64,000 bases of DNA from Candidatus Nitrospira neomarina (lineage in GTDB: Bacteria > Nitrospirota > Nitrospiria > Nitrospirales > UBA8639): contig NZ_CP116968.1 in the NCBI RefSeq assembly GCF_032051675.1, positions 2,542,001 to 2,606,000 of the forward strand, written 5' to 3'. This document shows, piece by piece, positions 27,501 to 58,017 of this stretch. Below the pieces are notes generated by a model. It made no database searches and was not told the DNA's origin. It worked only from the letters and a program-made list of their open reading frames with translations. A program made the translations under genes and the position numbers. Each line of letters starts with the position of its first letter. Position 1 is the first letter of the stretch.

Positions 27501-28800
27501 AGACCCCGGCGCCATAACCTTTACAACCGCCGGGGTGTTTACGGTGACCTATACGGTGACGGATGGCCTGGGATTGGCCGACCCCACCCCCGCGACTGTT
27601 CAAGTGACGGTGTCCGACACACCGCCACCCTCCGGCTTAACCATTTCGAACCTGTCCGTGGCCAGCGGGCAATCATATGTTGTGCCCGCTTCCGGCCTTC
27701 AAGCTGGGAGCACCGTCTATATTGACCGCGGCTATACCTTTACCACGGTCCCTGCCAGCGTACAGGGTGCCACGTACATCCGAACCGCTAATAATGATAA
27801 AACGGCTACTACTGCGACTTTTCTCAGCTTTACGGTCAATCAACCCGTCTCCGTATCAGTCGCCCATGACGTGCGGCTCACCCCTAAGCCGTCGTGGTTG
27901 AGCACCTTTACAGATACCGGTATAAATCTGGTGACCTCGGATACCACTCTTCGCCTCTTTGCACGGTCATTCCCGGCCGGGACTATTACCCTCGGGGGCA
28001 ATGCCAGTGGTGGGAGCGGCAGCATGTATTCGGTTATCGTCCAACCACAGGGGGGAGGAGGACCGGTTAACCAAGCCCCGAATGGGGTCATCAACACCCC
28101 AACTGGGGCGCAGACCATCCAGGTGGGCCAGACCGTCACCTTTACTGGCACGGGCACTGATCCTGAACCGAACCTACCCCTTACTCATCGGTGGACCTTT
28201 GGAGCCGGCTCCGGGATTGCTGATCGCACGGTAGAAGACCCCGGCGCCATAACCTTTACAACCGCCGGGGTGTTTACGGTGACCTATACGGTGACGGATG
28301 GCCTGGGATTGGCCGACCCCACCCCCGCGACTGTTCAAGTGACGGTGTCCGACACACCGCCACCCTCCGGCTTAACCATTTCGAACCTGTCCGTGGCCAG
28401 CGGGCAATCATATGTTGTGCCCGCTTCCGGCCTTCAAGCTGGGAGCACCGTCTATATTGACCGCGGCTATACCTTTACCACGGTCCCTGCCAGCGTACAG
28501 GGTGCCACGTACATCCGAACCGCTAATAATGATAAATCGGCTACCACTGCGACTTTTCTCAGCTTTACCGTCAATCAACCCGTCTCCGTGTCAGTCGCCC
28601 ATGACGTGCGGCTCACCCCTAAGCCGTCGTGGTTGAGCACCTTTACGGATACCGGTACAAATCTGGTGACCTCGGATACCACTCTTCGCCTCTTTGCACG
28701 GTCCTTCCCGGCCGGGACTATTACCCTCGGGGGCAATGCCAGCGGTGGAAGCGGCAGCATGTATTCGGTTATCGTCCAACCCCAGAGCCCAACCCCATAA
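24535..28800 (+). CDS. Exported purple-acid-phosphatase-like protein with duplicated domains
   Basis: The 1421-residue product starts from a TTG (no good ribosome-binding site) and has a signal peptide ending near AAAAVV. Residues 30-115 form the fibronectin-like N-domain of purple acid phosphatases. The metallophosphoesterase domain has all motifs: GDSG (Asp143), MGDIAYE (Asp177), GNHE (Asn211, His212), WHHPPYS (295-296) and GHSHAYER (338, 340). Then come modules: A1 (about 468-605), PKD-like B1 (607-705), C (711-929), B2 (930-1028), A2 (1033-1172), B3 (1174-1272), A3 (1278-1421). Copies of A and of B are nearly identical even at DNA level. C is shared with the protein at 33460-35109, and the first 450 residues with the protein at 30484-32745. 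A cell-surface or secreted phosphoesterase is likely; its substrate is unknown. Confidence 0.9.
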   Translation: MEYLKKSKWFIVSLSCALFVLVATVVPAAAAVVRQPYLQLVTPTSITIIWRTDLNSADNSQVKYGTASGSLTQTATGTAVTRTGLNVKDHIVTITGLTAATKYFYNVGTATDGIQGGGTTNHFFLTAPPVGSATPFRAWVLGDSGNASVNQRNVRDAMLTETTLNPPTPNLILHMGDIAYESGTDAEFTSKHFAIYQDILRQTPLWPTLGNHEALSVTTSLGIGPYYEAHVLPTSGQAGGVASGTEAYYAFDYANVHFIVLDSMDSSRAPGSPMVTWLQNDLASTGQEWVIAFWHHPPYSKGHDSDNAADSGGRLVDMREKILPILEAGGVDLVLAGHSHAYERSYLLDGAYGYGTAPNFATPSFNTLQADGHILDAGNGNPSGTGAYQKSAGGVSHEGTVYVVAGHGGKSIETNTGSHPVMTVVDLAYGSVLLDITGSSLTFRNLRAGGAITDTVAIQKNQPPPSPLTISNLTVASGQSYVVPASGLQAGSTVYIDRGYTFTTVPASVQGATYIRTANNDKTATTATFLSFTVNQPVSVSVAHDVRLTPKPSWLSTFTDTGINLVTSDTTLRLFARSFPAGTITLGGNASGGSGSMYSVIVQPQGGGGPVNQAPNGVINTPTGAQTIQVGQTVTFTGTGTDPEPNLPLTHRWTFGAGSGIADRTVEDPGAITFTTAGVFTVTYTVTDGLGLADPTPATVQVTVQTQGTGFTAYNDLAWGTGQLETNITKFTSPVGNSGLPSSGILKDFTTGLNTGVTLTVTGGEFIGSGQATQGANPTEGDAFTIFNGKVSTLGVISYVDQVANSLLLAFNGLNPSKTYDLSFFAHRDSYGWDRASLVTLSGQDAFTNTSSVASDNPSEVGGVIFSGPSDTSTRLPADNDKGYVARFSNIAPGSDGKVVLTISFDGNVASQYTGKYGSAIRLMESGDGGGPVNQAPNGVINTPTGAQTIQVGQTVTFTGTGTDPEPNLPLTHRWTFGAGSGIADRTVEDPGAITFTTAGVFTVTYTVTDGLGLADPTPATVQVTVSDTPPPSGLTISNLSVASGQSYVVPASGLQAGSTVYIDRGYTFTTVPASVQGATYIRTANNDKTATTATFLSFTVNQPVSVSVAHDVRLTPKPSWLSTFTDTGINLVTSDTTLRLFARSFPAGTITLGGNASGGSGSMYSVIVQPQGGGGPVNQAPNGVINTPTGAQTIQVGQTVTFTGTGTDPEPNLPLTHRWTFGAGSGIADRTVEDPGAITFTTAGVFTVTYTVTDGLGLADPTPATVQVTVSDTPPPSGLTISNLSVASGQSYVVPASGLQAGSTVYIDRGYTFTTVPASVQGATYIRTANNDKSATTATFLSFTVNQPVSVSVAHDVRLTPKPSWLSTFTDTGTNLVTSDTTLRLFARSFPAGTITLGGNASGGSGSMYSVIVQPQSPTP
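24600..25920 (+). repeat. Left arm of 1.3-kb inverted repeat
   Basis: The DNA for the phosphatase half of 24535-28800 is closely matched, in opposite orientation, by about 31400-32700. Long blocks are identical, such as the stretch starting GTGCGGCAACCTTACCTGCA in both. Confidence 0.85.
25936..26649 (+). repeat. Module A1-B1 repeat copy
   Basis: This DNA encodes module A followed by the PKD-like module B. At least 25976-26533 recurs without a visible difference at 27677-28234, an offset of 1701 bases. Such identity in DNA, not only in protein, means recent duplication or ongoing gene conversion. Confidence 0.85.
27319..28788 (+). repeat. Tandem 735-bp B-A repeat, two copies
   Basis: B2-A2 (27319-28053) and B3-A3 (28054-28788) are direct tandem copies with a period of 735 bases (245 codons). 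They differ at only a few positions that I can see, for example codons in the last A module (AAAACG versus AAATCG). Confidence 0.85.
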
Positions 28801-30483: not shown

Positions 30484-32745
30484 CTATTGAATTTGCCAAT
30501 CTAGGGAGGTCGTCGCGGGATAGCCGGTTGAGGTTATCGTCGCCCCATTCATTAACCATACCGCTACTGTGCCACTACCAGTATTATGCCAGACGAGGTC
30601 TGCCTTCCCATCGCCATTGAAATCACCAACTTGCCGAATCACCCAATTTAACGAGACACTACCTGGAAAGCCGGTCGATGTGATAGTCGCCCCATTCATG
30701 AACCACACCGCCACCGCGCCTGAACTCGCATGACGCCAAACAATGTCATCCGTGCCATTCCCATTTACATCTCCCAAGCCCACAATCTGCCAGGCTAAGG
30801 ATCCACCGGATGGGAAACCGGTTGACGTAATAGCGGCTCCATTCATCAACCACACTGCCACGGCCCCTGTGCTGTTTTTACGCCAAACAAGGTCTGCCTT
30901 CCCATCGCCATTGAGATCGCCTACCTCCTTAATCACCCAATCCAAGGGAACAGTGCCTGGAAAGCCAGTCGATAGGATGGTTGTCCCGTTCATGATCCAC
31001 ACCGCCACGGCACCACTGCTCGTATTTCGCCAGACGAGGTCTGCCTTCCCATCGCCATTGAGATCCCCCACGCCCGCGATCTGCCACGCTAAAGGCGCCC
31101 CGGGTGGGAAACCCGTCGACGTGATGGTTGTCCCGTTCATGAACCACACCGACACGGCGCCACTATTGGTATTTCGCCAGACGAGGTCTGACTTCCCGTC
31201 GCCATTAAGATCGCCCTTTCCGGCGATTTTCCAGGATAAAGACGCCCCGCCTGGAAACCCGGTGTTGGCAATATTAACACCATTCATGAGCCACACGGCC
31301 GAGGCCCCGGTACTGGTATTCCGCCAAACAAGATCCGATTTGCCGTCAATATTAAAATCATGCGTGGCAATGGTACCACTAGAATTTTTGACGATACTCA
31401 CGGTGTCGGTAATGTCGCCCCCTTCCCGCAAATTTCGAAATGTGAGACTGCTGCCCGTAATGTCTAAGAGTACCGATCCATAGGCTACGTCCAACACCGC
31501 CATGACGGGATGTACGGGATGGGTCGAATCAAGATCATGGCCTCCGTGGCCTGCCACGACATAGACTGTCCCATCGTGCGAAACACCGCCGGCACTTTTT
31601 TGATATGCTCCCGTGCCAGAGGGATTCCCATTTCCGGCATCAAGAATATGGCCATCGGCTTGCAGCGTATTGAATGATGGGGTGGCAAAATTAGGAGCTG
31701 TGCCATAGCCGTAGGCGCCATCTAGGAGGTAGGATCGCTCATAGGCATGGGAATGTCCCGCAAAGACCAAATCAACGCCCCCAGCTTCTAGAATAGGGAG
31801 AATCTTCTCCCGCATGTCGACCAGCCGTCCTCCGGAGTCGGCCGCATTGTCGGAATCGTGGCCTTTCGAATAGGGCGGATGATGCCAGAAAGCGATCACC
31901 CACTCCTGCCCCGTCGAAGCCAGATCATTTTGTAACCAGGTCACCATCGGCGAACCCGGGGCCCGGCTACTGTCCATCGAATCCAGCACAATAAAATGCA
32001 CATTGGCGTAATCAAAGGCATAGTAGGCCTCGGTGCCGGAAGCTACCCCTCCTGCTTGGCCACTACTCGGCAGGACATGGGCCTCATAGTAAGGGCCAAT
32101 GCCCATGGAGCTCGTGCTGTTCGGAACCTCATGATTGCCCAGCGTCGGCCAAAGGGGCGTCTGGCGGAGAATATCTTGATAGATCGCAAAATGCTTGCTG
32201 GTAAATTCCGCGTCGGTGCCATTTTCATACGCCATGTCCCCCATGTGAAGAATAATATCTGGTGGGTTCGCCGAAGTTTCGGTCAGCATCGCATCCCGCA
32301 CATTCCGTTGATTGACCCCGGCGTCGCCGGAGTCGCCCAGCACCCATGCTCGAATAGGTGTAGCCGACCCGATGGGGGGGGCCGTGACAAAAAAGTGATT
32401 AGTCGTCCCACCCGCCTGCACGACATTCGGCGCGGTGCCGACGTTATAGAAATATTTCGTGGCAGCCGCCAGGCCCGTAATGGTAACAATGTGATCCTTG
32501 ACGTTGAGCCCGGCCCGGGTGACCGCCGTGCCGGTTGCCGTTTGGGTCAGGGAGCCGGACACCGTGCCGTATTTTACCTGGCTATTGTCCGCTGAATTCA
32601 GGTCGGTACGCCAAACAATCGTAATGGAGGTGGGGGTGACAAGCTGCAGGTAAGGTTGCCGCACAACGGCCGCAATGGCTGGCACCACAGAGGCCACCAG
32701 CACGGACAGCAGACAGCCCAGGCTTACCAAAACAATTTTCTTCAT
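30484..32745 (-). CDS. Exported purple-acid-phosphatase-like protein with FG-GAP repeats
   Basis: The 753-residue protein starts at an ATG with a signal peptide (LVSLGCLLSVLVASVVPAIA). The first 455 residues match the N-terminal half of 24535-28800 almost word for word, including GDSGDA, MGDMAYE, GNHE, WHHPPYS and GHSHAYER, so the dimetal site is intact. From about residue 460 there are six FG-GAP/VCBS-type repeats of about 49 residues, each with a calcium-loop motif like DLNGDGKADLVWR and then AVWLMNG. Such repeats form a beta-propeller or calcium-stabilised stalk on secreted and surface proteins. It is convergent towards the IS remnant and is the right arm of a large inverted repeat. The tail swap relative to its sister is a clear case of domain exchange. 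Confidence 0.9.
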   Translation of the reverse strand: MKKIVLVSLGCLLSVLVASVVPAIAAVVRQPYLQLVTPTSITIVWRTDLNSADNSQVKYGTVSGSLTQTATGTAVTRAGLNVKDHIVTITGLAAATKYFYNVGTAPNVVQAGGTTNHFFVTAPPIGSATPIRAWVLGDSGDAGVNQRNVRDAMLTETSANPPDIILHMGDMAYENGTDAEFTSKHFAIYQDILRQTPLWPTLGNHEVPNSTSSMGIGPYYEAHVLPSSGQAGGVASGTEAYYAFDYANVHFIVLDSMDSSRAPGSPMVTWLQNDLASTGQEWVIAFWHHPPYSKGHDSDNAADSGGRLVDMREKILPILEAGGVDLVFAGHSHAYERSYLLDGAYGYGTAPNFATPSFNTLQADGHILDAGNGNPSGTGAYQKSAGGVSHDGTVYVVAGHGGHDLDSTHPVHPVMAVLDVAYGSVLLDITGSSLTFRNLREGGDITDTVSIVKNSSGTIATHDFNIDGKSDLVWRNTSTGASAVWLMNGVNIANTGFPGGASLSWKIAGKGDLNGDGKSDLVWRNTNSGAVSVWFMNGTTITSTGFPPGAPLAWQIAGVGDLNGDGKADLVWRNTSSGAVAVWIMNGTTILSTGFPGTVPLDWVIKEVGDLNGDGKADLVWRKNSTGAVAVWLMNGAAITSTGFPSGGSLAWQIVGLGDVNGNGTDDIVWRHASSGAVAVWFMNGATITSTGFPGSVSLNWVIRQVGDFNGDGKADLVWHNTGSGTVAVWLMNGATITSTGYPATTSLDWQIQ
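31400..32700 (-). repeat. Right arm of 1.3-kb inverted repeat
   Basis: This is the reverse complement of about 24600-25920, with a few percent of scattered differences by eye. The arms enclose about 5.5 kb, including the IS remnant and the tail modules of the left gene. Confidence 0.85.
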
Positions 32746-44907: not shown

Positions 44908-46167
44908 TTATTTTTTAAGAGGAACATTCGACTTCTTTTGGGCAATTTGGACCGATTGAAAGGCCTTGTCCTTTTGCCCAAGTGCCGCCTCTTGTTCAAC
45001 CTTCTTAAGGAAATCCTCTGGTCCGTGTACAGGAGCATACGTGAGAGTCACCACTACATCCATTGATGGCGCATCCTGCGGTGTGGGAAATGAAAAGACC
45101 TCTACCCGCATCTCTTCAGGTTTAAGCAGGGTGTCGCGTAATACCTTTTTTGCCTCAAAATCAAAGACCGTCTCTTTTCCCTCAGCATTCCCAAATGTCC
45201 GTTCATAAAAACGTTGTTCATTGTAAACCTTTTTGAGATTTTTCCCAAAAATAGAAAGATCAACGACGACCCGAGACCATCCGGGATGGGGCAACGGCAA
45301 ATTATGCGGGACCAAGCTCTGAATACTGACCTGCACTTGTGAAGTTTCAGGAGTGGTTTCAGTGGTAAAGTCCAAGGTGACAGCTTCCGCGCGGACTTTT
45401 CCGAATCTCCCAGGGAAACTGTGATTGGCGACCTTCCTGACCCTCTCCCCATTAGCAGATTCATCAACTGCCTCTGGCATATGACAGAATTGACAAGGCT
45501 TCCCATTGGTTTCAGATTTGGTTTTTTCCCAAGATCCAAGCCAACCAGGGAGGTCCTTGGCAGAGCCTGAGGTCTTTGGAAGTGAATCATGGCAGGTCAC
45601 GCAGAATTTTGACTCTCGATAGAGATCCAGCTTTTGTGATTGATGTGCCAGGTTCTCAGCGGCTTTGTCATATCCTCCAAAAATCGTCGTCCCCAATTGA
45701 AATGTTGGCGTTGGTGGATGGGAATTCATGTCCACATCCTGAATAAGATGGCATTGAGGGCAGCCGACTCCATCCATCTGTGGGTCTTTTGATTGAACTT
45801 CCTTAAGGAAACGAGGCAAGTGGTCAGGATACTCAAGAATGTGAGGCGCATGACAGCGAAAGCACATTGCATGATCTTTTTTATCGGTTGAAGCCAGATA
45901 TTGGTCCAAGGTTACTCGGAAAGGGGCAGTCACAATCGAACGCGATTGAGCTGAAGCTTCCCATTCTTCGAAGACCCTAAGGTGGCAGCGTTTACATTTC
46001 TCGGAATTGGGAAATGATTTTTCTAATGGTTTTTTGGTTGAAGACGATTCACCTGCGACCGAGCCAAGAAGAGGCGCCGTCAGCAGAAAACATCCCAAAA
46101 CCAGCAAAAATATCCCTCTCCTCACACCTGTACTCCTGCGGGCACTCTTTTTATAGCTTTTCCTCAT
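44908..46167 (-). CDS. Exported pentahaem cytochrome c (c554-like)
   Basis: Five CxxCH haem c sites are present at about residues 58, 102, 136, 189 and 225 (CKRCH, CFRCH, CPQCH, CVTCH, CQFCH). The pattern resembles the cytochrome c554 family of periplasmic electron carriers. A signal peptide (IFLLVLGCFLLTAPLLGSVAG) sends it to the periplasm, where haem is attached. The C-terminal 190 residues lack haem sites and look like a beta-domain, with LVPHNLPLPHPGWSRVVVDLSI. GAAGGA lies seven bases before the ATG. It is the last gene of an operon with a second, related cytochrome, a PDZ protein and a gamma-like haem b protein. Confidence 0.93.
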   Translation of the reverse strand: MRKSYKKSARRSTGVRRGIFLLVLGCFLLTAPLLGSVAGESSSTKKPLEKSFPNSEKCKRCHLRVFEEWEASAQSRSIVTAPFRVTLDQYLASTDKKDHAMCFRCHAPHILEYPDHLPRFLKEVQSKDPQMDGVGCPQCHLIQDVDMNSHPPTPTFQLGTTIFGGYDKAAENLAHQSQKLDLYRESKFCVTCHDSLPKTSGSAKDLPGWLGSWEKTKSETNGKPCQFCHMPEAVDESANGERVRKVANHSFPGRFGKVRAEAVTLDFTTETTPETSQVQVSIQSLVPHNLPLPHPGWSRVVVDLSIFGKNLKKVYNEQRFYERTFGNAEGKETVFDFEAKKVLRDTLLKPEEMRVEVFSFPTPQDAPSMDVVVTLTYAPVHGPEDFLKKVEQEAALGQKDKAFQSVQIAQKKSNVPLKK

Positions 46168-46218
46168 CAGACAATCCTTCGTATGTTATTCAACAAAAAA
46201 TCTGGACGTTTCTGCTGC

Positions 46219-47556
46219 CTATAAACTCATGGTGCGAAACGTGAGGAGACGCGGAGAAGAATAATCATGAATAATGCGTTCTGCAGCTTCCCGTTCTTTA
46301 TCGGAAGCCAGACTTTCAAGGAATTTCGCAGCAAGAGCCTTCGAGGGCTCAGGAATGAGCGAATAACTGACTGAGGCCTCAATGAGGGAAGCCTCTGAAT
46401 CTTTGGGATATTTCAACGTAAATGGGATATGTCTGGTTGTACCTCCATTGACAAATGGTCGGGGGATCGGACCACGAAGCAGTTCTTCAAATGTTCGGCC
46501 AAACCGTTCCTGATATTGATCGATAACCTGTCCATCTGAATTTTTGAGAGTTATCGTGACATAAAATTGTTTTAACACTGGATCGCCACCCGGAAAAGTA
46601 TGAGGCAAGGCACCATTTCGCACCAGGACTTCTCCCTCAACCTGCCCCTGAACCTTTTTAACCTCAATATCCACCCGCGAAAACCATTCGGCCTGTAAAT
46701 TTCTATTGCTCAGCATAATCCCCGGAATCACAATACCTTGGAACCAATGCCGCCCGATTGGCCGAGTGAGGGCTCCACGTTGAGAGGTTGAACTCCCGGT
46801 AGAACGCTCCATATGACAATCCTGACAAATCGTGCCTTTCAAAATTTCCCCTGGAATATCAGCCCGAGTAACATCCCTTACCTTATCAAAGTGGCAGGAT
46901 GCACAATAATGGGCCCCTCGATAAATATCCACCTGCCCGGATGGATGCACTAGATTCTCCTCTGGTTCTGCGTAGGGTCCGTAAAGAGTCTCCCCGGAGG
47001 TAATTTTAAAAGTGGGGTGCCCATAGGCATTTTCTTGAATGCCGGTAATCAGGTGACAGGCACTACAACCGATGCCTTCAATTTTGACCCGTTTTCCCCC
47101 TTTCATCACTTGATCAATAACTCGATCAGTGTGTTGAGGGAACACGGTCACCGCTGGAGCATGACAAGAAAGACAGCGAGTACGTTGCTCCTGATCCGGA
47201 TCCGTTTGAAGCCACAGGCCTAAAACGGTTTTGAACACTGGAGAGGTGAAAGCCGTCCCATGCAGGAGAGCTCCATCCACGCGGCCAAATGTCTTTAAAT
47301 CCATGGTCTGCTCGCGCATCCCCTTCCACTCTTCATAATGCCGGTCATGGCATTGTTTGCATTGTTCGGAAGGGATAAAAACTTGTTCAATTTCCTTAAT
47401 CCAGGATTCTTCTGCTTCACCAACAACCGTGCTTGGCTGTTGACCAAACCCGATGCCGGATAAACAAAAAATCCCCAACATGATTGTTAAAATCCATCGG
47501 TTGTACATGGGTATTATTTCCAAAAACCGAAAAATTTTACTAAACAGATTCTTCAT
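46219..47556 (-). CDS. Exported pentahaem cytochrome c (c554-like), second copy
   Basis: Five CxxCH sites are at about residues 66, 128, 164, 218 and 244 (CKQCH, CLSCH, CSACH, CASCH, CQDCH), with the same spacing plan as the downstream protein. A hydrophobic segment at about 21-38 is the signal sequence or anchor. After the haem domain a beta-rich region has GALPHTFPGGDPVLKQFYVTITL, matching the position of the PHNLPLPHPGW motif of its neighbour; the HxxPxG-like motif in both suggests a shared extra fold. The two genes are paralogues by tandem duplication. They may pass electrons between the gamma-like protein at 48036-48914 and the respiratory chain. The start ATG has little ribosome-binding sequence. 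Confidence 0.92.
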   Translation of the reverse strand: MKNLFSKIFRFLEIIPMYNRWILTIMLGIFCLSGIGFGQQPSTVVGEAEESWIKEIEQVFIPSEQCKQCHDRHYEEWKGMREQTMDLKTFGRVDGALLHGTAFTSPVFKTVLGLWLQTDPDQEQRTRCLSCHAPAVTVFPQHTDRVIDQVMKGGKRVKIEGIGCSACHLITGIQENAYGHPTFKITSGETLYGPYAEPEENLVHPSGQVDIYRGAHYCASCHFDKVRDVTRADIPGEILKGTICQDCHMERSTGSSTSQRGALTRPIGRHWFQGIVIPGIMLSNRNLQAEWFSRVDIEVKKVQGQVEGEVLVRNGALPHTFPGGDPVLKQFYVTITLKNSDGQVIDQYQERFGRTFEELLRGPIPRPFVNGGTTRHIPFTLKYPKDSEASLIEASVSYSLIPEPSKALAAKFLESLASDKEREAAERIIHDYSSPRLLTFRTMSL

Positions 47557-47565
47557 GCAAGTAAC

Positions 47566-48039
47566 TTAATCCTGCAGAATTCGTACAAAATGGAAATTAA
47601 GCCCTCCGGTAACCCCTTGATTATCGGGATCCGCAGGTTCATATGTGGCAACAGTAAAATTCTTTGTGGGGAGGGTCTGCTCCAAGGCTGTTCCCAAATC
47701 TACAAGGGATTGAATTTCATATTTATCCACTTCCTTAATGATCGCTTTCACTTTTATGCCTGACAATTCAGCGGGAGACCCTCCTATGACGGCATACACT
47801 ACCACCCCTTCAGCTTTGGTTAAGCCAAGAATTTTCTTGACCTCCTCATCTACTTCCCCCACATCGATGCCAAACTTTTCAGCTAGAATCAGGGCTTTTT
47901 CTTTGGTCATACTCTCACTTGGCGGTTGACCAAATGCTTCTCCTTGAAGAACCATCATTCCAAACCACAGGCACCAACATATTAAGAACACTTGCATTCC
48001 GCCTGTAGATCTCATCCTCTTCATTATTGGGATCCTCAT
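47566..48039 (-). CDS. Exported PDZ-domain protein
   Basis: The 157-residue protein has a signal peptide (VFLICWCLWFGMMVLQGEAFG) and then one small domain. GVVVYAVIGGSPAELSGIKVKAIIKEVDKYEIQS is the carboxylate-binding loop region of a PDZ domain, as in the second PDZ of HtrA/DegP-type proteins, but no protease domain is present. A lone PDZ domain would bind the C-terminus of a partner protein. Its start ATG overlaps the stop of the gamma-like haem b protein (ATGA), and it ends 10 bases before the first cytochrome gene, so all are translated together. A scaffold or assembly role for the periplasmic complex is my inference. Confidence 0.85.
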   Translation of the reverse strand: MRIPIMKRMRSTGGMQVFLICWCLWFGMMVLQGEAFGQPPSESMTKEKALILAEKFGIDVGEVDEEVKKILGLTKAEGVVVYAVIGGSPAELSGIKVKAIIKEVDKYEIQSLVDLGTALEQTLPTKNFTVATYEPADPDNQGVTGGLNFHFVRILQD

Positions 48040-48914
48040 GATGAGCTCTGCGTGGACTCAATCCCTCCTGCCCCATGTTGAGATGAGGCCTGAACAGGAT
48101 CAATAAGTAATTGCATCCAGGAAGCAACAGATTTTTGCCCATTCCGCTCCTTATTTTCTCCATTCCAAACGGCAAAGGCTATGGCTTGCATGCGCCCGGG
48201 AACCAACATCGCTTCATTGTCCAAATCGTCTCCCATAGACGTCAAAGGCCGTTTCATGACCACTCGCCATAGGCCATTTTTCCATTCCCCTTGTCCTTGA
48301 ATTCGTCCCTGCTGTTCTTTGCTAGTTAGGGTGCTAAACCCTCCTCCCACGAGGTCCTCAACCGATGAAGGCCGACGCGGGATCACTTCAAACCGGCGAG
48401 GACCTGATTCCTCCCGCTTAGATTCTTTGGCTCGCTCGGCCCGCCGATCCACGTCGCTTTGCCAATCCGCTTTCCAATGCCAAATATTCACATAATGATC
48501 AAGTTGGCCCATGCAAAAAAAGGCCGGTGCATCTCCCAGAGGCAGAGCCACGGCAACCCCATCCCTAAAAACCCCGGGCGTCAATGATTCATTAATTGTG
48601 GCATCCTGCCATTCCAGCAAAAACGCAATATCTTTTCCGTTATGAATTGATCGAATAGAGAGGGCTCTCGCACTTGGCTCCGGCCATACCGGTCTGGTAA
48701 TGATTTGGCCACTGAGAGGAACAGGGAGGGGAGCCACGGTCTCCCACGCTGAATCGGAAGGATGGGAAGGCACTTCCCCTTTTGAAAAATGCGAAAGGAC
48801 AACCATACCCTGGGAACTGACAAGGGGGACTTGATACCAAGTCAATCCGAATAAAACCACCAACGCAAGAACCACAAACGAAATAATCCGTTTTTTGGCG
48901 TGAATTGTGCTCAA
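48036..48914 (-). CDS. Haem b gamma-subunit-like protein (DMSO reductase type II / NXR family)
   Basis: It belongs to the ethylbenzene dehydrogenase/nitrate reductase gamma family, whose members bind one haem b through a Met and a Lys. Candidate ligands are Met135 in AFFCMGQLDHYVNIWHWKADW and Lys221 in WRVVMKRPL. SVEDLVGGGFSTLTSKEQQG and AIAFAVWNGENKERNG are family motifs. The N-terminal segment (about 9-28) is a signal sequence or anchor. The start is a TTG at 48914, with AAGGA about nine bases before. It heads an operon with a PDZ protein and two pentahaem cytochromes, with no catalytic molybdopterin subunit, so it may serve as an electron relay by itself or with an enzyme encoded elsewhere. 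Residues 155-180 are very charged, unlike the sister at 55027-55983. Confidence 0.88.
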   Translation of the reverse strand: MSTIHAKKRIISFVVLALVVLFGLTWYQVPLVSSQGMVVLSHFSKGEVPSHPSDSAWETVAPLPVPLSGQIITRPVWPEPSARALSIRSIHNGKDIAFLLEWQDATINESLTPGVFRDGVAVALPLGDAPAFFCMGQLDHYVNIWHWKADWQSDVDRRAERAKESKREESGPRRFEVIPRRPSSVEDLVGGGFSTLTSKEQQGRIQGQGEWKNGLWRVVMKRPLTSMGDDLDNEAMLVPGRMQAIAFAVWNGENKERNGQKSVASWMQLLIDPVQASSQHGAGGIESTQSSS

Positions 48915-49300: not shown

Positions 49301-50554
49301 TTATCGTAATTTTACCCGACGAATTTTATTTTCATTCCGTTCACATATGTACAAATACCCCTGTGAGTCCAAGGTCAGGCCAGCTGGAGTATTCACAATT
49401 GCCTCTATGGCAATAAGGCCATCACCATGTTTCAACATCCCAGCGTCTTCTTTTGCCACAAAGCGCGCAGCACCGCACCCACCCATATTTTTGTCATCGT
49501 AGCCACTATCGCCATTCCCCGCGACGGTTGTAATGATACCGGTCTGGCAATCAACTTTTCGTACCCGGTGATTCATGGAATCGGAAATATACACATTTCC
49601 ATCTGAGTCCACCACAGCGCCCTCCGGGACATTAAGCATGGATTTCACCGCTAACTTTCCATCGCCGTCAAATCCATACCGACAGATGCCAGCCACGGTG
49701 GACATCGTGCCCGTTTTCCGATCTAGCTTTCGGATGCGGTTGGTTCCCTTATCGGTGATATATAGATCCCCATGTTTGTCCACATCGATATCGACCACGT
49801 CATACAACTTGCACTCCAAAGCCGGCTTGCCATCGTCAAGATATAGCGATAAATCCAGTCCATCGGAACAACGGGGACGCAGTAAGCCTTCATCGTTGCT
49901 AAAATCTATCCCAATCGCATCGCCAGAAAGAACAATTAGATTTTGAGCGGTCAGAGGGCTCACGCGCTCATCATCTTCTGCCGTCCAACATCCGGCAATG
50001 GTCGTCAGCATTCCTGTCTGAGGATTGTAATGCCGGATCCGATGGGCTTGAGTGTCTGCAATGTAAAGATGATCCTGATCGTCGATTGCAATGGCTGCCG
50101 GATAGGTTAAATTGCACTCCAAGGCTGGCCCATCCCCATTATATCCCCACTGCCCCGTCCCGATGATGGTCGTAATGATTCCTGTATCCGCGTCAATTTT
50201 TCTGATTCGATTGCTGCCTGAATCACAGACATAAATATGATTGTGAGAATCACACAAGACATCTAATGGAAGGTAAAGCCCAGCTTCCCCACAAGGTCCG
50301 TAATCGCCGCTGTAACATGTCTCACCGGTCCCCGCAAAGTTATGCAGAAGGCCTGTTTCCATATCCACCCGCCTGATTCGGTCAGAACCGGATTCGGCAA
50401 TGTAAAAAAACCGACCATCCCGATCAACCGTAATATGGTTAGGCAGCGGAATTCCAGATTTCACCGCTCGCTTACCATCACCCGTACTGCGAGATTTTCC
50501 ATTGCCGGCAAAGGTTTCAATCACTCCGATTTCTAACGCGGTCTCGATACTCAT
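49301..50554 (-). CDS. NHL-repeat beta-propeller protein
   Basis: The 417-residue product consists of about six or seven NHL repeats. Each contains a motif such as LPNHITVDRDGRFFYIAESG, then IRRVDMETG and a glycine-rich turn such as FAGTGETCYSGDYG. This gives a six-bladed propeller, probably for binding a protein or ligand. There is no signal peptide, so it may be cytoplasmic. I start at the ATG at 50554, which has GAAGGGTGA upstream; a TTG six codons earlier is the alternative. Family members can bind partner proteins or act as hydrolases with metal sites; no catalytic site is obvious. It is the last gene of the operon with tatA. Confidence 0.86.
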   Translation of the reverse strand: MSIETALEIGVIETFAGNGKSRSTGDGKRAVKSGIPLPNHITVDRDGRFFYIAESGSDRIRRVDMETGLLHNFAGTGETCYSGDYGPCGEAGLYLPLDVLCDSHNHIYVCDSGSNRIRKIDADTGIITTIIGTGQWGYNGDGPALECNLTYPAAIAIDDQDHLYIADTQAHRIRHYNPQTGMLTTIAGCWTAEDDERVSPLTAQNLIVLSGDAIGIDFSNDEGLLRPRCSDGLDLSLYLDDGKPALECKLYDVVDIDVDKHGDLYITDKGTNRIRKLDRKTGTMSTVAGICRYGFDGDGKLAVKSMLNVPEGAVVDSDGNVYISDSMNHRVRKVDCQTGIITTVAGNGDSGYDDKNMGGCGAARFVAKEDAGMLKHGDGLIAIEAIVNTPAGLTLDSQGYLYICERNENKIRRVKLR

Positions 50555-50644
50555 AGACAATTCACCCTTCAAGGTTCATTTCAAAAAATCCGGCCCAATC
50601 GCCACCACGGAATAGCCTTTTGGCCCCTCGCCGTTTTAGCAGAA

Positions 50645-50968
50645 TTAGGCCTTAGAGGACGCAGGAACCTGTTCCTGTTGAGCCGGCTGGACTGCTGCCG
50701 GTGGCATTGGGGAACCCGTTTCCAACGGGGCGGTCTGCATAGGCTGTGAAATTTGCGGTTGAGCATTTCCCTGGTTGGCGGATGCCGAATTTTCAGCCTG
50801 TGCTTGGGGGTCTATGTCATATGCTTCTGCCTCTTGAACAGATTTCTTGAACCCTTTAATCGCTTTTCCGACCCCTTCGCCCAATTGCGGTAATTTTCCC
50901 GCCCCAAAAATGATTAGCACAATCATGAGGATGAGAATTAATTCTGTAAATCCTAAGCTTCCAAACAT
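50645..50968 (-). CDS. tatA: TatA/TatE-type twin-arginine translocase protein
   Basis: The N-terminus is typical: [20 protein letters not shown] forms the membrane helix, the hinge is [20 protein letters not shown], and an amphipathic helix follows. The C-terminal 60 residues are Gln/Ala/Pro-rich and disordered, longer than in E. coli TatA. TatA forms the pore-like assembly that exports folded cofactor-bearing proteins. AAGGAGAGG lies just upstream of the ATG. It lies in an operon with TPR, membrane and radical SAM proteins near TorD and NxrC, and no tatBC are in the window, so it may be a specialised extra copy for folded redox proteins; that is inference. Confidence 0.93.
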
Positions 50969-50990: not shown

Positions 50991-51806
50991 TCACTTTTTC
51001 ACCGTTTCACGCGAACGCTTGTTAAATCGATCCTTGAGACGATTTCTGGTTTCTTCCGCCTGCTCAAACATCTTACACTTTTCATAGGTGTTAATCAGAT
51101 TATAATAGGCCAATGGTTCGTCCTGATTATTTTCAACGGCATCTTCCATGACCTTTACTGCCATATCAGGTTTCTTCAGATTCAGGGCAATTTCCATGAG
51201 CCTAAAACTCGACTCAAGATGACTTGGATCAAACTGCAGGACTTTCATATACGCCTGCATAGCCATGTCTATCGTATTAAAATCGGAGACATTGGGATCA
51301 TCCAATTTTTCATAGACTCCAGCCAAATTATACCAAGCAATCGGATCTTCAGGTGAAATTTCGATCAGACGTTCGAAATACTCTTTGGCCTCCAGAAATG
51401 CATTTTTGTCATTATAGAGTCGGCCGACATTAAAAAGTGCAAGAACATCATAGGGGTTTAGTTCCAGCGCTCGTTTAAATTGAGCCGTGGCCTCATCCAA
51501 CATCCCTTTCGTTCCATAGATCGTTCCAAGATTCGAGTAGTACATGGCTAGAGATCGATCCATCTCAATCCGAATGCCCTCTGCCATCTCAATGGATTTC
51601 TTTACTTCCGCCAGTGCTTCATCCATCCGTCCTTTATTGAAATAAAGTTCACCCAAGCGACACCGCGCTTGAAAGTCGTCAGGCTCCTCACTCAGGAGCT
51701 TTTCAATCTCTGCAATTTCCTCATCAACCGTTAAAGGGCGATCTTCTGTGGTCGTCTCCCCCGACTGCGGATCCATTGTTTGGCTTCCAGCACTTTGTTC
51801 TTCCAT
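50991..51806 (-). CDS. Soluble TPR protein
   Basis: The 271-residue product has no signal peptide. It starts with an acidic tail ([20 protein letters not shown]), then about five or six TPR units follow, for example [20 protein letters not shown] and [20 protein letters not shown], with a spacing of 34 residues. It ends with a basic, polar segment. Such an array usually holds a multi-protein complex together. It lies between tatA (22 bases) and the polytopic membrane protein gene (14 bases) on the same strand, so the group is one transcript. A role in assembly of the exported redox proteins is possible but not shown by the sequence. Confidence 0.88.
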
Positions 51807-51820
51807 TTCAGGTGTCCTAA

Positions 51821-52933
51821 CTACTGTGTTTGCCCGTATACGGGACGAATTGGTTGATAGACTACCCCCTCTAGGGATTTCTTACGAAGTTTTCCTAACG
51901 TTCCTCTTTTATCAATATTTAGCAACATTAACCCAAGCACTACCATCAAGGTCAAATGTGATAATTGAAGCGCATAGCCTGCCATAAACATGAGGCCTAG
52001 CCCATATCCTGCTAATCGACCAATCAACACTAACTTAATCACGGTATACGCCCAGCAGGTAAAGCCCAACACATAAAATGCAAAAGGGAGATAAAAGGTA
52101 TAGCCCATTCCCATTTGAAAAATCCAGCCTATCCCCTCTCCAGCCTTCCTGACTTCTTTCGCCACTTCAGGGTTCCAAAGAGAAAGGAAATAATCCATGA
52201 ACAGTAAGGCGACAAAAGCGCTGCCCCCGCTAATAACCAAAGTTAATCCCCACCGGCGTTGTTGCTTGTTTTTGGTAATAATTGAAGTAGTGCCATAGGC
52301 CCAAAATACCAGGATGCTTGAAAGAACCATGAGTGCTTCCCCGAGCCGATTCCCTTCATGCACCAGCGGAGGGGCATCAAAAATATTGAGCCATCCATAC
52401 GTCGTTGACATCGTCTGATAATACAGCCATCCACTAATACCCAGGAAAAAACTACCTACCATAAGCCGTTGACTCAACACCCGGTGAGTAGCCCAATATT
52501 CCAAAACCAGAAAAACGATCAACCCAAACGCCAAAATATTATAAATAATGGTCCCGACCATGACTGGAGGAAAGAATAAGTAACCCACCGTACATGCTAC
52601 CAATAAGGCCGCCAATGGAATAATAACCTTATCCCACTCTCCCACCCACAGCTTTGTCCGTAATTTTTGAACCAGCAAAATACCCAAAATCAGAAAAACC
52701 AGAATGGCCGTCATATTCAACAGAACAAACCCTAATGAAGAGAGTGTGCGAAATCCGATCCTGACCGCTTCATATTTTTCGGCTAATTTGCCAAGGTGCA
52801 TACCCAACCGTGAAACCAGCCGATACAGCACCAATTCAAAAAAGGCTGCAAACAACAAACTCTTAAGACCCCATTCAAAAAGAAGCCCTGGGCCGTCGAT
52901 TCTTTCCTGGTTCTTTTCAGTAGTAGAAATCAT
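51821..52933 (-). CDS. Polytopic inner-membrane protein of unknown family
   Basis: The 370-residue product has nine or ten hydrophobic segments, spread from about residue 25 to the end. The N-terminus is polar and faces the cytoplasm by the positive-inside rule (RLRKKS-type charges occur at the C-terminus too). There are no CxxC, His-rich or quinone-site motifs I can name, so a respiratory subunit is not proven. The membrane face has aromatic-rich loops, WLYYQTMSTTYGWLNIFDAPP among them. No strong ribosome-binding site is visible before the ATG. The neighbours (tatA, TPR, radical SAM and NHL genes) suggest a membrane member of an assembly system. Confidence 0.85.
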   Translation of the reverse strand: MISTTEKNQERIDGPGLLFEWGLKSLLFAAFFELVLYRLVSRLGMHLGKLAEKYEAVRIGFRTLSSLGFVLLNMTAILVFLILGILLVQKLRTKLWVGEWDKVIIPLAALLVACTVGYLFFPPVMVGTIIYNILAFGLIVFLVLEYWATHRVLSQRLMVGSFFLGISGWLYYQTMSTTYGWLNIFDAPPLVHEGNRLGEALMVLSSILVFWAYGTTSIITKNKQQRRWGLTLVISGGSAFVALLFMDYFLSLWNPEVAKEVRKAGEGIGWIFQMGMGYTFYLPFAFYVLGFTCWAYTVIKLVLIGRLAGYGLGLMFMAGYALQLSHLTLMVVLGLMLLNIDKRGTLGKLRKKSLEGVVYQPIRPVYGQTQ

Positions 52934-53005: not shown

Positions 53006-54778
53006 CTACACCCTAGAGGGCTCCACCTCAAGCTCTTTGTTATGCCGGGTGATATATAACAACCCATCCGCCATGGAGTAGTTAAAGGGTAATTCACATA
53101 CCACTTCACTAATCTTTTCATACACATATTGATATACTTTTTCAGCCTGTTCTGGAGTCATCCCCGATTTTACTTCATAAAAGAACCCTAAGCTCAAATC
53201 TTCCGAGGCAGGTCGCATAATTCGTTGAATCCCATACCCCCCTGGATCGCTCATAATAGGAGCTTCCTTTTCTAAATCAAACAAGCACGGTTGACAGGAA
53301 AACCCATAGGAGGAATGCAGCTTCGTATTATTAACAATAAAATTCAATGTTTCCAATGATTCTTCCTCTGTTTCGGTCGGAAACCCTACAATCACATAGC
53401 AATGCACCGCAATTCCAAGATCAACACAATCGGAACAGATCCGATCAACATTTTCTTGGGTAATCCCCTTCACCATAAAATCCATCAACCGGGCATTATA
53501 GGTTTCCAAACCAAAGACAATTTTCTGACATCCTGCCTCCCGCATAGATGTAAGTAGCTCACGAGATAAATTCTTTTCAAACCGCAGCTCGGCCGTCCAC
53601 TGTAAACCCAATTTTCGATGAATGAGTTCCTTACACAATCGCTTGGTTGGCGAAAGAGCCAGGCATTCATCCGTAAAGAAAAAATACGGTGTTTCATATT
53701 TATGGGACAACGCTTCCAATTCATCCACAACTTTTATCGGATCCTTTTGCCGAAAATTCTGATGATCCAAAGTCAGGGCACAAAACGCACAATCCTTATA
53801 ATAACAACCCCTAGAAAATTGTACTGGCAACACCGTATGCGGGGCTAAATAGTCACCCAAGGGAAACCCGTCATAGTTTGGGGCTGGGTGGTCCGCAAGA
53901 TTTTCCGAGTAAAAGGGTTGATTCACAATTATTTTTCCCTCTTGCCGCCAGATAAGATTCGGCACTTTCGAAAAATCTTTTTTCCCGTCTAGTTGATTTA
54001 TCAGTTCCAAAAGTGCCGTCTCACCTTCAAACACAATGAAGTCATCTGTCAATTGAAACAACCGATCACACCGTCTGAGATTGTCTACCAGTCTTGTAAA
54101 AATACTACCCCCGATGGTGACATGAACCTCCGGATGAATTTCCTTAATTAATTTACACAGAGTTAAACCAGGGATAATCTGTGAGGTTGCGGTAATGGAG
54201 ACTCCAACAAAATCTGGAATATCTTGTCCAAAAGCAGGAAAGAAAAATTTTCGATAAAGCACAAGATACGGATTTTGGTTTTCATCGTGGATAGCTTGGA
54301 GAATTTCTCGGGAAGAATAGATTGAATACGCAAATTGGTTGTCTACCACCGTCATTCTGGTGGGAAAATATAAAGAAGATACAACCTCCAACCACCGATC
54401 AATTAAAAAGAGACATTCTCGGTAACGCTCAATGTCGTAAAACTCTTCCCCACGCAATGATGCTTTAACGGGTTCGATTTCATCTATGAGATAAGGAAAG
54501 CGGTCAAGTGATTCAACAACACGAGCGTAATGCTCCTTACTCCCATAGCCGGTATCTCCAGAAACCGATACTTCCAGTTTTTTAACCAAATCAACTAACT
54601 GTGGATAAATATCTAACCCAAATTCTTTAGTTAACACCCTATCAAGCAACTCAATATTTAAATCGCGTTGCTGATGAACCGGAACACCGGATTTTTCAAG
54701 AAAGGCCGAAAGACACGGAATACTCAAATAGGGCTGAGAGGGATGCCAACTAGGAGGGAATAAAAGTGAAATTTTCAC
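53006..54778 (-). CDS. B12-binding-type radical SAM enzyme
   Basis: The N-terminal half (about 1-310) is a cobalamin-binding-like Rossmann domain as in B12 radical SAM proteins, with the region PDFVGVSITATSQIIPGLTL and EVHVTIGGSIFTRL; the classic DxHxxG base is not obvious, so B12 binding is uncertain. The radical SAM TIM barrel (about 320-560) has Cys325, Cys330 and Cys333 in SRGCYYKDCAFC, that is CX4CX2C instead of the usual CX3CX2C. FFTDECLALSPTK and KIVFGLETYNARL are family motifs. The start is GTG at 54778, with GGGAG upstream. It is the first gene of the operon with the membrane, TPR, tatA and NHL genes, just downstream of a terminator. The reaction is unknown. Confidence 0.88.
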   Translation of the reverse strand: MKISLLFPPSWHPSQPYLSIPCLSAFLEKSGVPVHQQRDLNIELLDRVLTKEFGLDIYPQLVDLVKKLEVSVSGDTGYGSKEHYARVVESLDRFPYLIDEIEPVKASLRGEEFYDIERYRECLFLIDRWLEVVSSLYFPTRMTVVDNQFAYSIYSSREILQAIHDENQNPYLVLYRKFFFPAFGQDIPDFVGVSITATSQIIPGLTLCKLIKEIHPEVHVTIGGSIFTRLVDNLRRCDRLFQLTDDFIVFEGETALLELINQLDGKKDFSKVPNLIWRQEGKIIVNQPFYSENLADHPAPNYDGFPLGDYLAPHTVLPVQFSRGCYYKDCAFCALTLDHQNFRQKDPIKVVDELEALSHKYETPYFFFTDECLALSPTKRLCKELIHRKLGLQWTAELRFEKNLSRELLTSMREAGCQKIVFGLETYNARLMDFMVKGITQENVDRICSDCVDLGIAVHCYVIVGFPTETEEESLETLNFIVNNTKLHSSYGFSCQPCLFDLEKEAPIMSDPGGYGIQRIMRPASEDLSLGFFYEVKSGMTPEQAEKVYQYVYEKISEVVCELPFNYSMADGLLYITRHNKELEVEPSRV

Positions 54779-55026: not shown

Positions 55027-55983
55027 TTAGTTTGGCATTTGAGCCGTAAACCAAGTCGAAATCCCTTTCATCCCATTTCGTTCTACGTTTGAACCGTCCC
55101 AGACCGCAAAAGCTACTGGGAAGCTCGATCCTGCCGCGAACTGAACATCATTGGGGTCTTGAGTTTTGAGACTCCGCTTCATGACCACTCTCCAGGTCGG
55201 ACCGCTGCAGCATCCACCCTTCAGTGACCCATACGGCTCCCATAATCCATTTCCTACCACGTCTTGCGACGCCTGGGTAGTCAACGTACTAAATCCGTTA
55301 GCATTCAAATCTTCAACTGATCCCAGCCGCAGGTTAGGATCGGACATGATGTTACCAGACCAAATGCCGGGGTTAAATGGCCCTAAGCTCCGACCAATTC
55401 GGTCAGGATAGGTCACACCACCAGCTGGCTCTTCATAGTAGTAATCCCATGCAATGGAGGGATATTGATTATCCACATCCCACATACCGGCCACGCCCGC
55501 TCCAAGATCCTTTTGCCATTCCGCATTCCAACGCCATATGTTGACCGTCCCACCAGACTGTCCCATACATTGGAATGGAGGCGCCCCTGCAGATTGCACA
55601 GGGAATTGTACCGCCACTTGATCCCTGAAATCCTGAGGACCAATGGTGGTGTTATTTAATGTTTGATCCCCCCAGTTAGCCCAAACGCCGATTTCTTCGC
55701 CATTTGTTGCCATTTTGATCATCACAGTTTTCACTGAAATGTTCGGGTGCATTGGGGTCGTTATCGTCTGCCCACTTAATGGGGCAACGATACCGGGCAC
55801 GGATTCCCATACAGGATTCGCCGCATCCATAGGGATTGGGCCAGTAATTTTGCCAACCGGAATCGTTACCGGTTGCGAGACGGCCAGCGGAATCTGCCCC
55901 ATGGTCAAACCTACACACACCACCAGGACAGACAGAAGAACGCCAAACACCAGTCGTTTGTTACGCGTCTGCACCAATCTCAT
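55027..55983 (-). CDS. nxrC: Nitrite oxidoreductase gamma subunit-like haem b protein
   Basis: Like the protein at 48036-48914 it is of the DMSO reductase type II gamma family. Met140 (PPFQCMGQSGGTVNIW) and Lys269 (WRVVMKRSL) are the expected axial haem b ligands. A signal sequence (LLSVLVVCVGLTMGQIPLAV) directs it to the periplasm, where in Nitrospira-type nitrite oxidation it would take electrons from the Mo and Fe-S subunits NxrA and NxrB. GGAGGATGCG precedes the ATG. It forms a single-gene unit with its own terminator, followed by the radical SAM operon, and lies just after torD. The NXR label is an inference from family and neighbours; other substrates of type II enzymes are possible. 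Confidence 0.85.
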   Translation of the reverse strand: MRLVQTRNKRLVFGVLLSVLVVCVGLTMGQIPLAVSQPVTIPVGKITGPIPMDAANPVWESVPGIVAPLSGQTITTPMHPNISVKTVMIKMATNGEEIGVWANWGDQTLNNTTIGPQDFRDQVAVQFPVQSAGAPPFQCMGQSGGTVNIWRWNAEWQKDLGAGVAGMWDVDNQYPSIAWDYYYEEPAGGVTYPDRIGRSLGPFNPGIWSGNIMSDPNLRLGSVEDLNANGFSTLTTQASQDVVGNGLWEPYGSLKGGCCSGPTWRVVMKRSLKTQDPNDVQFAAGSSFPVAFAVWDGSNVERNGMKGISTWFTAQMPN

Positions 55984-56098: not shown

Positions 56099-57070
56099 CT
56101 AAGCATTTCCTGACTGACCTGAAGTTCCACTTTCCTTATCCAAAAATGCATCTGCTCCAACTTCACTCATCAGAAGGCTTAGCTCATTTCCTTGATCTTG
56201 AGCACCACATTCAAAACTTTGACCTTCAGGGTTATTGTACGACGCAGGGCGATAGTCTGTTTCTGAATAAGGCTGAGGTGTCACCCCTAAGAACGCAATA
56301 TCGAAAGCAATCCAATGAGAGGTGAAATCAGCCAAAATCTTATAAAAACCGTAATCGGCTTTTCTATTTAACATTCCTGAAAACAAAGGAACCCATCGAC
56401 CAATATGCTCTTTAACGAATTTTTTTTCAGCTTCAATGACGGTTTTAAGTTTATCTGCTCCATCATGGAGAATGGCATATGATTCTTTGTACGCCAGATA
56501 ATGCATAAATTCCAATTCTACACTCAAATGATCCAGGCGTTCATGAATATCCGGAGAAAGCTGAAGGCCAAAAGCACTATAAAAACCAGCAATGTCTCCC
56601 ATTACGTAAGACTGCCCGAAAACATGATCATTTCCAAATAATGTCTCGTATGGCGGACAATCTAACGCGATGACATTGCTAAACACGCGACGATGCTCAT
56701 CACGTAAGTCTTGAAGACTCCAGTTTTCGCCCTCTGAGGATATCCAAGATTCAATGGCATCAAAATTACCCACCAATGCATCAAGACGCTCTTGCGCTTC
56801 ATTGCCACCTATATTTTGCAGCTCTTTTTTCAACCCTTCTAATGCCGACTTTCCATCCTCAACAAATTCCCCACTCTGAAGATAATCCAGAAATTCCTCG
56901 TCTTCTGGGTAGAGATATCCCCAGGACACCAACAGGTAAAGTTTGCTTCGACAAAGCGCCCGGTCAACAGCTGGCGCATCTTTTGGAGAAATCTTGACGG
57001 CCTTTTCATTTCCAGAAACTGGCATTCCGTTTTTCCCTGCTTTTTTCCCCTCTTTAACGCCTGATGTCAT
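56099..57070 (-). CDS. TorD/DmsD-family molybdoenzyme chaperone
   Basis: This cytoplasmic chaperone family binds the twin-arginine signal and folding intermediate of molybdopterin enzymes until their cofactor is in place. The body (about 30-270) is all-alpha. Family motifs are SWGYLYPEDEEFLDYL near the start, DEHRRVFSNVIALDCPPYETLFG, and LDHLSVELEFMHYLAYKE with the His/Glu pair. At 323 residues it is much longer than the usual 200-220, with an extra 30-residue N-terminal tail and a C-terminal extension of about 50 residues. AGGTGAAAT lies before the ATG. It precedes nxrC, with 115 bases between, supporting a molybdoenzyme of the nitrite/nitrate type nearby in the genome. Confidence 0.9.
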   Translation of the reverse strand: MTSGVKEGKKAGKNGMPVSGNEKAVKISPKDAPAVDRALCRSKLYLLVSWGYLYPEDEEFLDYLQSGEFVEDGKSALEGLKKELQNIGGNEAQERLDALVGNFDAIESWISSEGENWSLQDLRDEHRRVFSNVIALDCPPYETLFGNDHVFGQSYVMGDIAGFYSAFGLQLSPDIHERLDHLSVELEFMHYLAYKESYAILHDGADKLKTVIEAEKKFVKEHIGRWVPLFSGMLNRKADYGFYKILADFTSHWIAFDIAFLGVTPQPYSETDYRPASYNNPEGQSFECGAQDQGNELSLLMSEVGADAFLDKESGTSGQSGNA

Positions 57071-57405: not shown

Positions 57406-58017
57406 TTACCTCGAAACAATCCGAATTGCGCTACGGTCATTTACCGTTCCACAGATATATTGGCATATGCCACAACCCACGCATACTGAATCATCTACAC
57501 GAATGTGATAAGAAGCAAAATCCATCGAAAGTGCCTCCGTAGGACATTTAGACACACATGCATTGCAGCCAGTTCCTGCCGTACACATTTTTGCCAAAAC
57601 TTTCGCCACTCCCATATTTACCTGAAACCGATCCGCAACGGGCAAAAGGGCCTCCGTTGTGCACGCTCCGATACAGGGGAGATCTTCACATAATTTGCAT
57701 GGAGATTCTCCTGGATAGATAACGGGAGTATCATTACTCGCTAACACTTGAATGGCATCGTGAGGACAGACCTCGACGCAATCGGCGCATCCCGTGCATC
57801 GCTCCAAAAACAATTCCTCATCAACAGCCCCTGGGGGACGGAGCCACCCCGTTTTCTCAGGAACAGGCTCCTCCTTTTTTATCGGGGGAGGAGCATCACG
57901 ATGTTTGACAAATTCATGAACTGTGGCGCCAAGGGAAATGGCCGACTGTCGAAGAAACATTCTACGACCTAATGTCGGATTGGACGAAGGTTGGTTTGGC
58001 AGATGGGAGTCCGACAT
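57406..58017 (-). CDS. Four-cluster ferredoxin-type protein (NapF/NapG/MauM-like)
   Basis: The 203-residue product has four 4Fe-4S sites: CTGCADCVEVCP (from residue 74), CKLCEDLPCIGAC (107), a third starting CTAGTGCNACVSKCP (145), and CVGCGICQYICG (179). The N-terminal sequence GRRMFLRQSAISLG (17-30) resembles a twin-arginine export signal, although its hydrophobic core is weak, so location is uncertain. Such proteins pass electrons to, or help mature, molybdenum enzymes of the NapA type. Its stop is 335 bases upstream of the chaperone gene, and it starts 64 bases after the HExxH gene. Cluster spacing is normal in all four sites. The link to nitrite oxidation is by neighbourhood. Confidence 0.9.
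   Translation of the reverse strand: MSDSHLPNQPSSNPTLGRRMFLRQSAISLGATVHEFVKHRDAPPPIKKEEPVPEKTGWLRPPGAVDEELFLERCTGCADCVEVCPHDAIQVLASNDTPVIYPGESPCKLCEDLPCIGACTTEALLPVADRFQVNMGVAKVLAKMCTAGTGCNACVSKCPTEALSMDFASYHIRVDDSVCVGCGICQYICGTVNDRSAIRIVSR

Follow-up and report, generated by a model that had tools for sequence, protein, structure and literature searches.

The closest described system is the N. moscoviensis gene cluster NITMOv2_3614-3631, encoding NxrC, TorD and two putative pentaheme cytochromes, which the passages of its source available to us present as a conserved cluster diagnostic of nitrite-oxidising Nitrospirales, without an assigned function (PMC12342949, 2025). In the available passages of PMC6606698, two of its genes are named nxrC_1 (NITMOv2_3617, 30.8 kDa) and nxrC_2 (NITMOv2_3624, 34.2 kDa), and N. 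moscoviensis transcripts are given as 354 RPKM for nxrC_1, 20,365 for nxrC_2 and 18,744 for nxrB. The nxrC genes of all Nitrospira lie apart from the molybdopterin gene (PMC8115632), and the genes common to Kuenenia, Nitrospira and Nitrospina, as given in PMC3578206, include no pentahaem cytochromes. The wider question is by what routes electrons reach and leave NXR in Nitrospira, and what these genomes use several gamma subunits for.

The four-gene module analysed here bears on this question. It consists of a second NXR gamma subunit, a lone PDZ protein and two pentahaem cytochromes (CytA and CytB). The preliminary description of this DNA had stated that it knew of no description of the set, and this does not hold: the cluster is described in PMC12342949 and its gamma is named NxrC_1 in PMC6606698, as far as the excerpts of these papers go. 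These excerpts make no mention of the PDZ protein, do not group the four genes together and offer no mechanism, and our literature search found no paper combining Nitrospira, PDZ, nitrite-oxidizing and cytochrome. The cluster is real, exceptionally conserved and known; what is added here is the PDZ component, its strict co-inheritance with CytA, the family of the cytochromes and a pattern in the CytA C-terminal tails.

Organisation of the module and its gene block

The window, i.e. the whole stretch of DNA analysed, is 64 kb of a genome of 4.80 Mb in one contig. To judge by its relatives, this is a marine-type Nitrospira, probably from lineage IV. All four genes first reported from it (gamma-like, lone PDZ, two pentahaem cytochromes) are found on its minus strand, from 48914 down to 44908 (genome coordinates 2586908-2590914), in the order gamma, PDZ, CytA, CytB. 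As also first reported, no molybdopterin-oxidoreductase gene lies near the module, the nearest match in the genome being at 2935645, ~345 kb off. The module is the tail of a block of ~12 genes on the same strand, which begins with a NapG-like ferredoxin (57406-58017; NF007012, 3.7e-24), a TorD-like NXR chaperone (56099-57070; TIGR03482, 1.5e-22) and the main NXR gamma subunit (55027-55983; PF09459, 5e-27). These are followed by a B12-binding radical SAM protein (53006-54778; PF04055, PF02310), a polytopic membrane protein matching no Pfam or NCBIfam family (51821-52933), a TPR protein identified by domain search (50991-51806), a TatA/TatE-family protein (50645-50968; TIGR01411, 4.7e-18) and an NHL-repeat protein (49301-50572; NHL, 4.1e-29). 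The best model for the radical SAM protein is a RiPP maturation C-methyltransferase (TIGR03975, 1.1e-42), and almost every locus has its gene within the NXR cluster; a role in methylating a cofactor or an NXR protein is conceivable.

Translational coupling of gamma and PDZ had been proposed from a 4-bp ATGA overlap of the two genes. The overlap is real in this genome, but elsewhere it is found almost only among close relatives, and coupling is rejected as a conserved trait. Across the loci of relatives the median gap is 73 bp between gamma and PDZ versus 9 bp between PDZ and CytA, and the closest-packed neighbour of the PDZ gene in most genomes is CytA, not gamma. A promoter and terminator scan of the region was uninformative (9 and 7 sites, versus 5.7 and 5.8 in shuffled sequence). 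Elsewhere in the window, 24535-28800 and 30484-32745 encode large secreted proteins with near-identical, metallophosphatase-like N-terminal regions, followed by long internal repeats in the former, while the latter has FG-GAP-like repeats, all as read from the translations.

Conservation and taxonomic distribution

All 100 related loci compared, which include some genomes twice, show the block in the same colinear order, and this conservation is far above chance. Genes absent from these loci mostly lie beyond contig ends, and a few genomes are truly rearranged upstream (e.g. loci L074 and L132). The order is also kept in f2, the deepest-branching NXR family, and in small genomes (L197-L202). 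The check suggested in the preliminary description, whether the four genes are conserved together, thus comes out in favour of a single co-inherited unit.

At orthologue-level thresholds, CytA and the PDZ protein share exactly the same distribution, 140 of the 396 Nitrospirota genomes. All 140 belong to families f1-f3, all of them families with NXR genes, and neither protein occurs in the other 256 genomes. The two genes are adjacent on one contig in 136 of the 140; in three of the exceptions (G098, G117 and G136) they lie at or near contig ends, and in G066 the link is lost. The possibility that the G066 PDZ gene is a relocated module copy was rejected, since it groups with unlinked paralogues in a small tree, read without its support values. 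A CytA-family match is present in 152 of the 154 good-quality genomes of the order, and those genomes listed without CytA that meet the quality limits are of family f4, which has no member among the genomes with a strong NxrB match. The absence of CytA from f4 fits the statement, in the part of the source available, that family UBA2166 is the sole Nitrospirales clade without NXR (PMC12342949). In the NXR-bearing families, the module is missing from hardly any good genome.

Additional copies of its components also occur. Close to a sigma-70 factor gene, the genome of the window encodes another lone PDZ protein (50% identical; L066 10097-10642), and several relatives likewise have unlinked PDZ copies of this kind. 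The genome of the window also carries a further NxrC (L059 8447-9430), which shares 87% identity with the main NxrC, and, ~9 kb past it, an additional CytA-CytB pair (L059 17998 to L060 702) accompanied by neither gamma nor PDZ. Genome G103 has an extra gamma-CytA-CytB trio without PDZ (L204 9172-12631), with a tailed CytA and surrounded by genes resembling mercury and arsenic resistance.

The second gamma subunit

The gamma gene (48036-48914, minus strand, TTG start as listed) encodes a protein of 292 aa with a signal peptide or anchor followed by a haem-b EB_dh domain, which scores 104.9 bits against PF09459 (EB_dh; cut-off 33.3, E 8.8e-30). It falls below the cut-off of the narrower TIGR03477 (147 versus 169.85 bits), as does the main NxrC (135 bits). 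The protein aligns with Kuenenia NXR-C (7b04_C, 1.8e-41) and with EbdC (2ivf_C), and Met135 and Lys261, which align with the corresponding positions of both chains, are invariant in 29 sequences (22 gamma orthologues and seven main NxrC). We take these positions to be the axial haem b ligands, both of which the gamma keeps by alignment. It is predicted to carry haem b, and its family exchanges electrons with the beta subunit.

Masses of the two N. moscoviensis orthologues (locus L165) are 30.85 and 34.24 kDa. Since these agree with the masses in the available passages of PMC6606698, we identify the gamma at 48036 as the NxrC_1 orthologue and the main gamma as that of NxrC_2. According to the same passages the nxrC_1 transcript is ~57-fold below that of nxrC_2 in N. 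moscoviensis, and NxrC_1 is therefore not a stoichiometric core subunit. It is neither encoded with the alpha and beta subunits nor published as expressed at their level. A protein of 651 aa encoded just past the window on its right (L058 9158-11113) has cytochrome c domains (two CXXCH) fused to an EB_dh domain and resembles the alternative NxrC, bearing two haems c, that has been published.

The PDZ protein and the C-terminus of CytA

The PDZ gene (47566-48039, minus strand) encodes an exported protein of 157 aa with a signal or anchor helix and a PDZ domain, to which nothing else is fused. Its Pfam PDZ matches are under the curated cut-off, whereas the DegP model TIGR02037 matches at 1.6e-11, and profiles match DegP-like chains at 1e-14. 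The AF2 model (pLDDT 83) resembles the PDZ domains of DegP/DegQ (Foldseek to DegP, 1e-5), and ligand-bound HtrA2 and HtrA3 PDZ entries are among its structural matches. Neither the domain search nor the AF2 model shows a trypsin-like protease domain in the 157 aa, so the protein is not itself an HtrA; it is HtrA-derived and strictly co-inherited with CytA, both points being new here. An analogy with NXR-T, the tubule-inducing subunit of Kuenenia, was considered and rejected, NXR-T being a monohaem four-helix protein unlike PDZ or either cytochrome.

HtrA-type PDZ domains bind hydrophobic C-termini, which makes CytA the obvious candidate ligand. Of 79 intact CytA orthologues, 75 end flush in a Leu or Phe, as do six further ones, whereas all five copies without a linked PDZ gene carry extra C-terminal tails; a Fisher test on these counts ignores shared ancestry, and the tailed copies form a small and in part related group. 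The five are the CytA of the pairs in L059 (the genome of the window), L207 (G029) and L205 (G022), that of the trio in L204 (G103) and that of the operon of L166, which has no trace of a PDZ gene between gamma and CytA and was assigned to this group post hoc, after the Fisher test on the counts. By sequence, CytA mostly appears to have a free Leu/Phe end where a PDZ gene is adjacent and a tail where it is not, a pattern also new here. A firm claim of binding between PDZ and the CytA tail is withheld, since three PDZ-linked copies are tailed as well and Leu is kept inside the tails of tailed copies; given this persistence, the Leu may be structural. Of the role first proposed for the PDZ protein, as scaffold of an electron conduit, docking is plausible, and the C-terminal pattern lends it some support.

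A PDZ protein that is HtrA-derived and devoid of protease would also suit NXR biogenesis or quality control. Gamma, PDZ and cytochromes would then mature, haem-load or redox-check periplasmic NXR outside respiration, with a placeholder gamma and HtrA-like docking. TorD, TatA, the NapG-like ferredoxin and the main NxrC in the same block are consistent with such a role, as are the gamma transcript far under those of the core subunits in the N. moscoviensis values available and the strict co-inheritance with NXR families. However, two pentahaem cytochromes with invariant haem ligands would be costly for an assembly factor, and we know of no TorD-type system elsewhere that needs them; moreover, the trio and the cytochrome pair are also found far from the block. 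On balance we regard biogenesis as rather unlikely.

The pentahaem cytochromes

CytA (46219-47556, minus strand, 445 aa, with RLLTFRTMSL as its last ten residues and thus a free C-terminal Leu) and CytB (44908-46167, minus strand, 419 aa) contain exactly five CXXCH motifs each. They had been presented as duplicates, and are indeed homologous (~26% identity; profile-profile E 1e-46), but the duplication is ancient, not recent. CytB matches the selenoprotein cytochrome MccSep (6.8e-12), c552 (1.3e-9) and c554, with a weak match to the archaeal nanowire cytochrome 8e5g_A (E 0.035); c552 has been linked to archaeal extracellular cytochrome nanowires (ECN) (PMC11976967). The best solved match of the CytA model is c552; the AF2 model, which is poor in the haem domain, was used for this match and for the C-terminal domain, not for ligand geometry. 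Both proteins combine five c-haems with a C-terminal beta domain, as in the c552/ExtKL/MccSep family, although the ExtKL model NF040886 (cut-off 250 bits) is not reached (CytB 92.7 bits, CytA 48.4 bits). We assign both to this family on sequence and fold matches, an assignment new here. The designation of the module as exported redox proteins is supported.

CytA has five invariant non-motif His residues, i.e. one candidate distal His per haem, a number that would be enough for bis-His ligation of all five. CytB has four such His for its five haems, and the Sec position of MccSep corresponds to an invariant His in CytB (His294) and to an invariant Asp in the matching loop of CytA (Asp325). These features would suit a small-molecule redox enzyme (an oxyanion or nitrogen-oxide reductase, or a detoxification enzyme) made up of CytA and CytB, with gamma as electron partner, PDZ as anchor and NXR not directly involved. 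Consistent with such an enzyme, the relatives of CytB include c554 and MccSep, which has been studied with a Sec mutant, and the G103 trio lies among resistance-like genes. Its substrate pocket would be hypothetical, CytA appears fully ligated and the confinement to NXR-bearing families points to nitrite metabolism, so that we consider an enzyme of this kind improbable.

A proposed second electron port for NXR

We propose, with a probability of roughly 0.4, that the module is a periplasmic, PDZ-docked, low-abundance second electron port for NXR, with flow more likely in than out. NxrC_1, with its Met/Lys-ligated haem b, would take the docking position of the main NxrC_2 on NxrAB, and the CytA-CytB pair would exchange electrons with it. 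The lone PDZ protein would keep CytA close to the complex or to the membrane, probably through a grip on the free C-terminal Leu/Phe of the cytochrome. Net flow would more probably run into NXR, either in the nitrate-reducing direction or keeping the enzyme reduced, and the port would be weakly expressed while nitrite is being oxidised. Since the trio occurs once without PDZ, gamma plus CytA-CytB would form the core.

Bis-His haems are usually low in potential. The solved CytA relative c552 is called “low-potential” in the title of its publication, the haem b of Kuenenia NXR-C is high-potential and the nitrite couple lies at +430 mV (PMC3578206). With cytochromes that look low-potential and a gamma haem that is probably high-potential, flow from the cytochromes to gamma would be easier than the reverse. 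The preliminary description had suggested the opposite, an output branch in which nitrite-derived electrons pass through gamma and the pentahaem pair towards a different acceptor. Such a branch would use the same genes, universal in nitrite-oxidising Nitrospirales, and several gammas have been proposed to serve different acceptors (PMC3578206). With low-potential cytochromes, however, its electrons would have to move uphill, the block has no recognised gene for an acceptor or an outer-membrane porin, and the gamma is weakly expressed under nitrite oxidation in the N. moscoviensis data available; we therefore regard it as doubtful and very improbable.

An inward port accords with the capacity of NXR to reduce nitrate with H2 or formate, as stated in the available part of PMC12342949. 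Against the port, the module genes are not beside nxrAB, and universal conservation is a poor fit to an optional nitrate-reducing role. A more specific version, which we think unlikely to hold in full, is that a protease-less HtrA PDZ became a dedicated socket for the CytA C-terminal residue in the common ancestor of all the nitrite-oxidising Nitrospirales, forming with the second gamma a plug-in electron port, possibly for running NXR backwards or setting its redox state. Binding of the PDZ protein to the CytA tail is a specific and cheap test, which would turn part of the NXR electron question into an experiment; if true, separate multihaem proteins of a bacterium would here be docked to one another through a PDZ domain.

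Comparison with known systems

The N. moscoviensis cluster NITMOv2_3614-3631 is orthologous to the block described here, and as far as its published description was available, NxrC, TorD, unknown proteins and two pentahaem cytochromes are common to both. The gamma shares its fold family and both haem-b ligand positions with NXR-C of Kuenenia stuttgartiensis (7b04_C) and EbdC of ethylbenzene dehydrogenase (2ivf_C), but these are stoichiometric subunits of isolated complexes, whereas NxrC_1 is encoded far from nxrAB and weakly transcribed. CytA and CytB share five haems and a C-terminal beta domain, by sequence and fold matches, with Thermochromatium c552 (5ze8), Geobacter ExtKL, which lies within a conserved electron-transfer cluster, and MccSep (9wt8); they differ in having no Sec and in forming a heterologous pair with gamma and PDZ. 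An HtrA-type PDZ domain is teamed with c-type haems in MamP/MamE of magnetosomes (PMC3971196), and the PDZ model matches MamP (4jj0_A) at 3.8e-4. MamP, however, joins PDZ and two haems in a single chain, whereas the module described here distributes them over separate proteins, with five haems per cytochrome.
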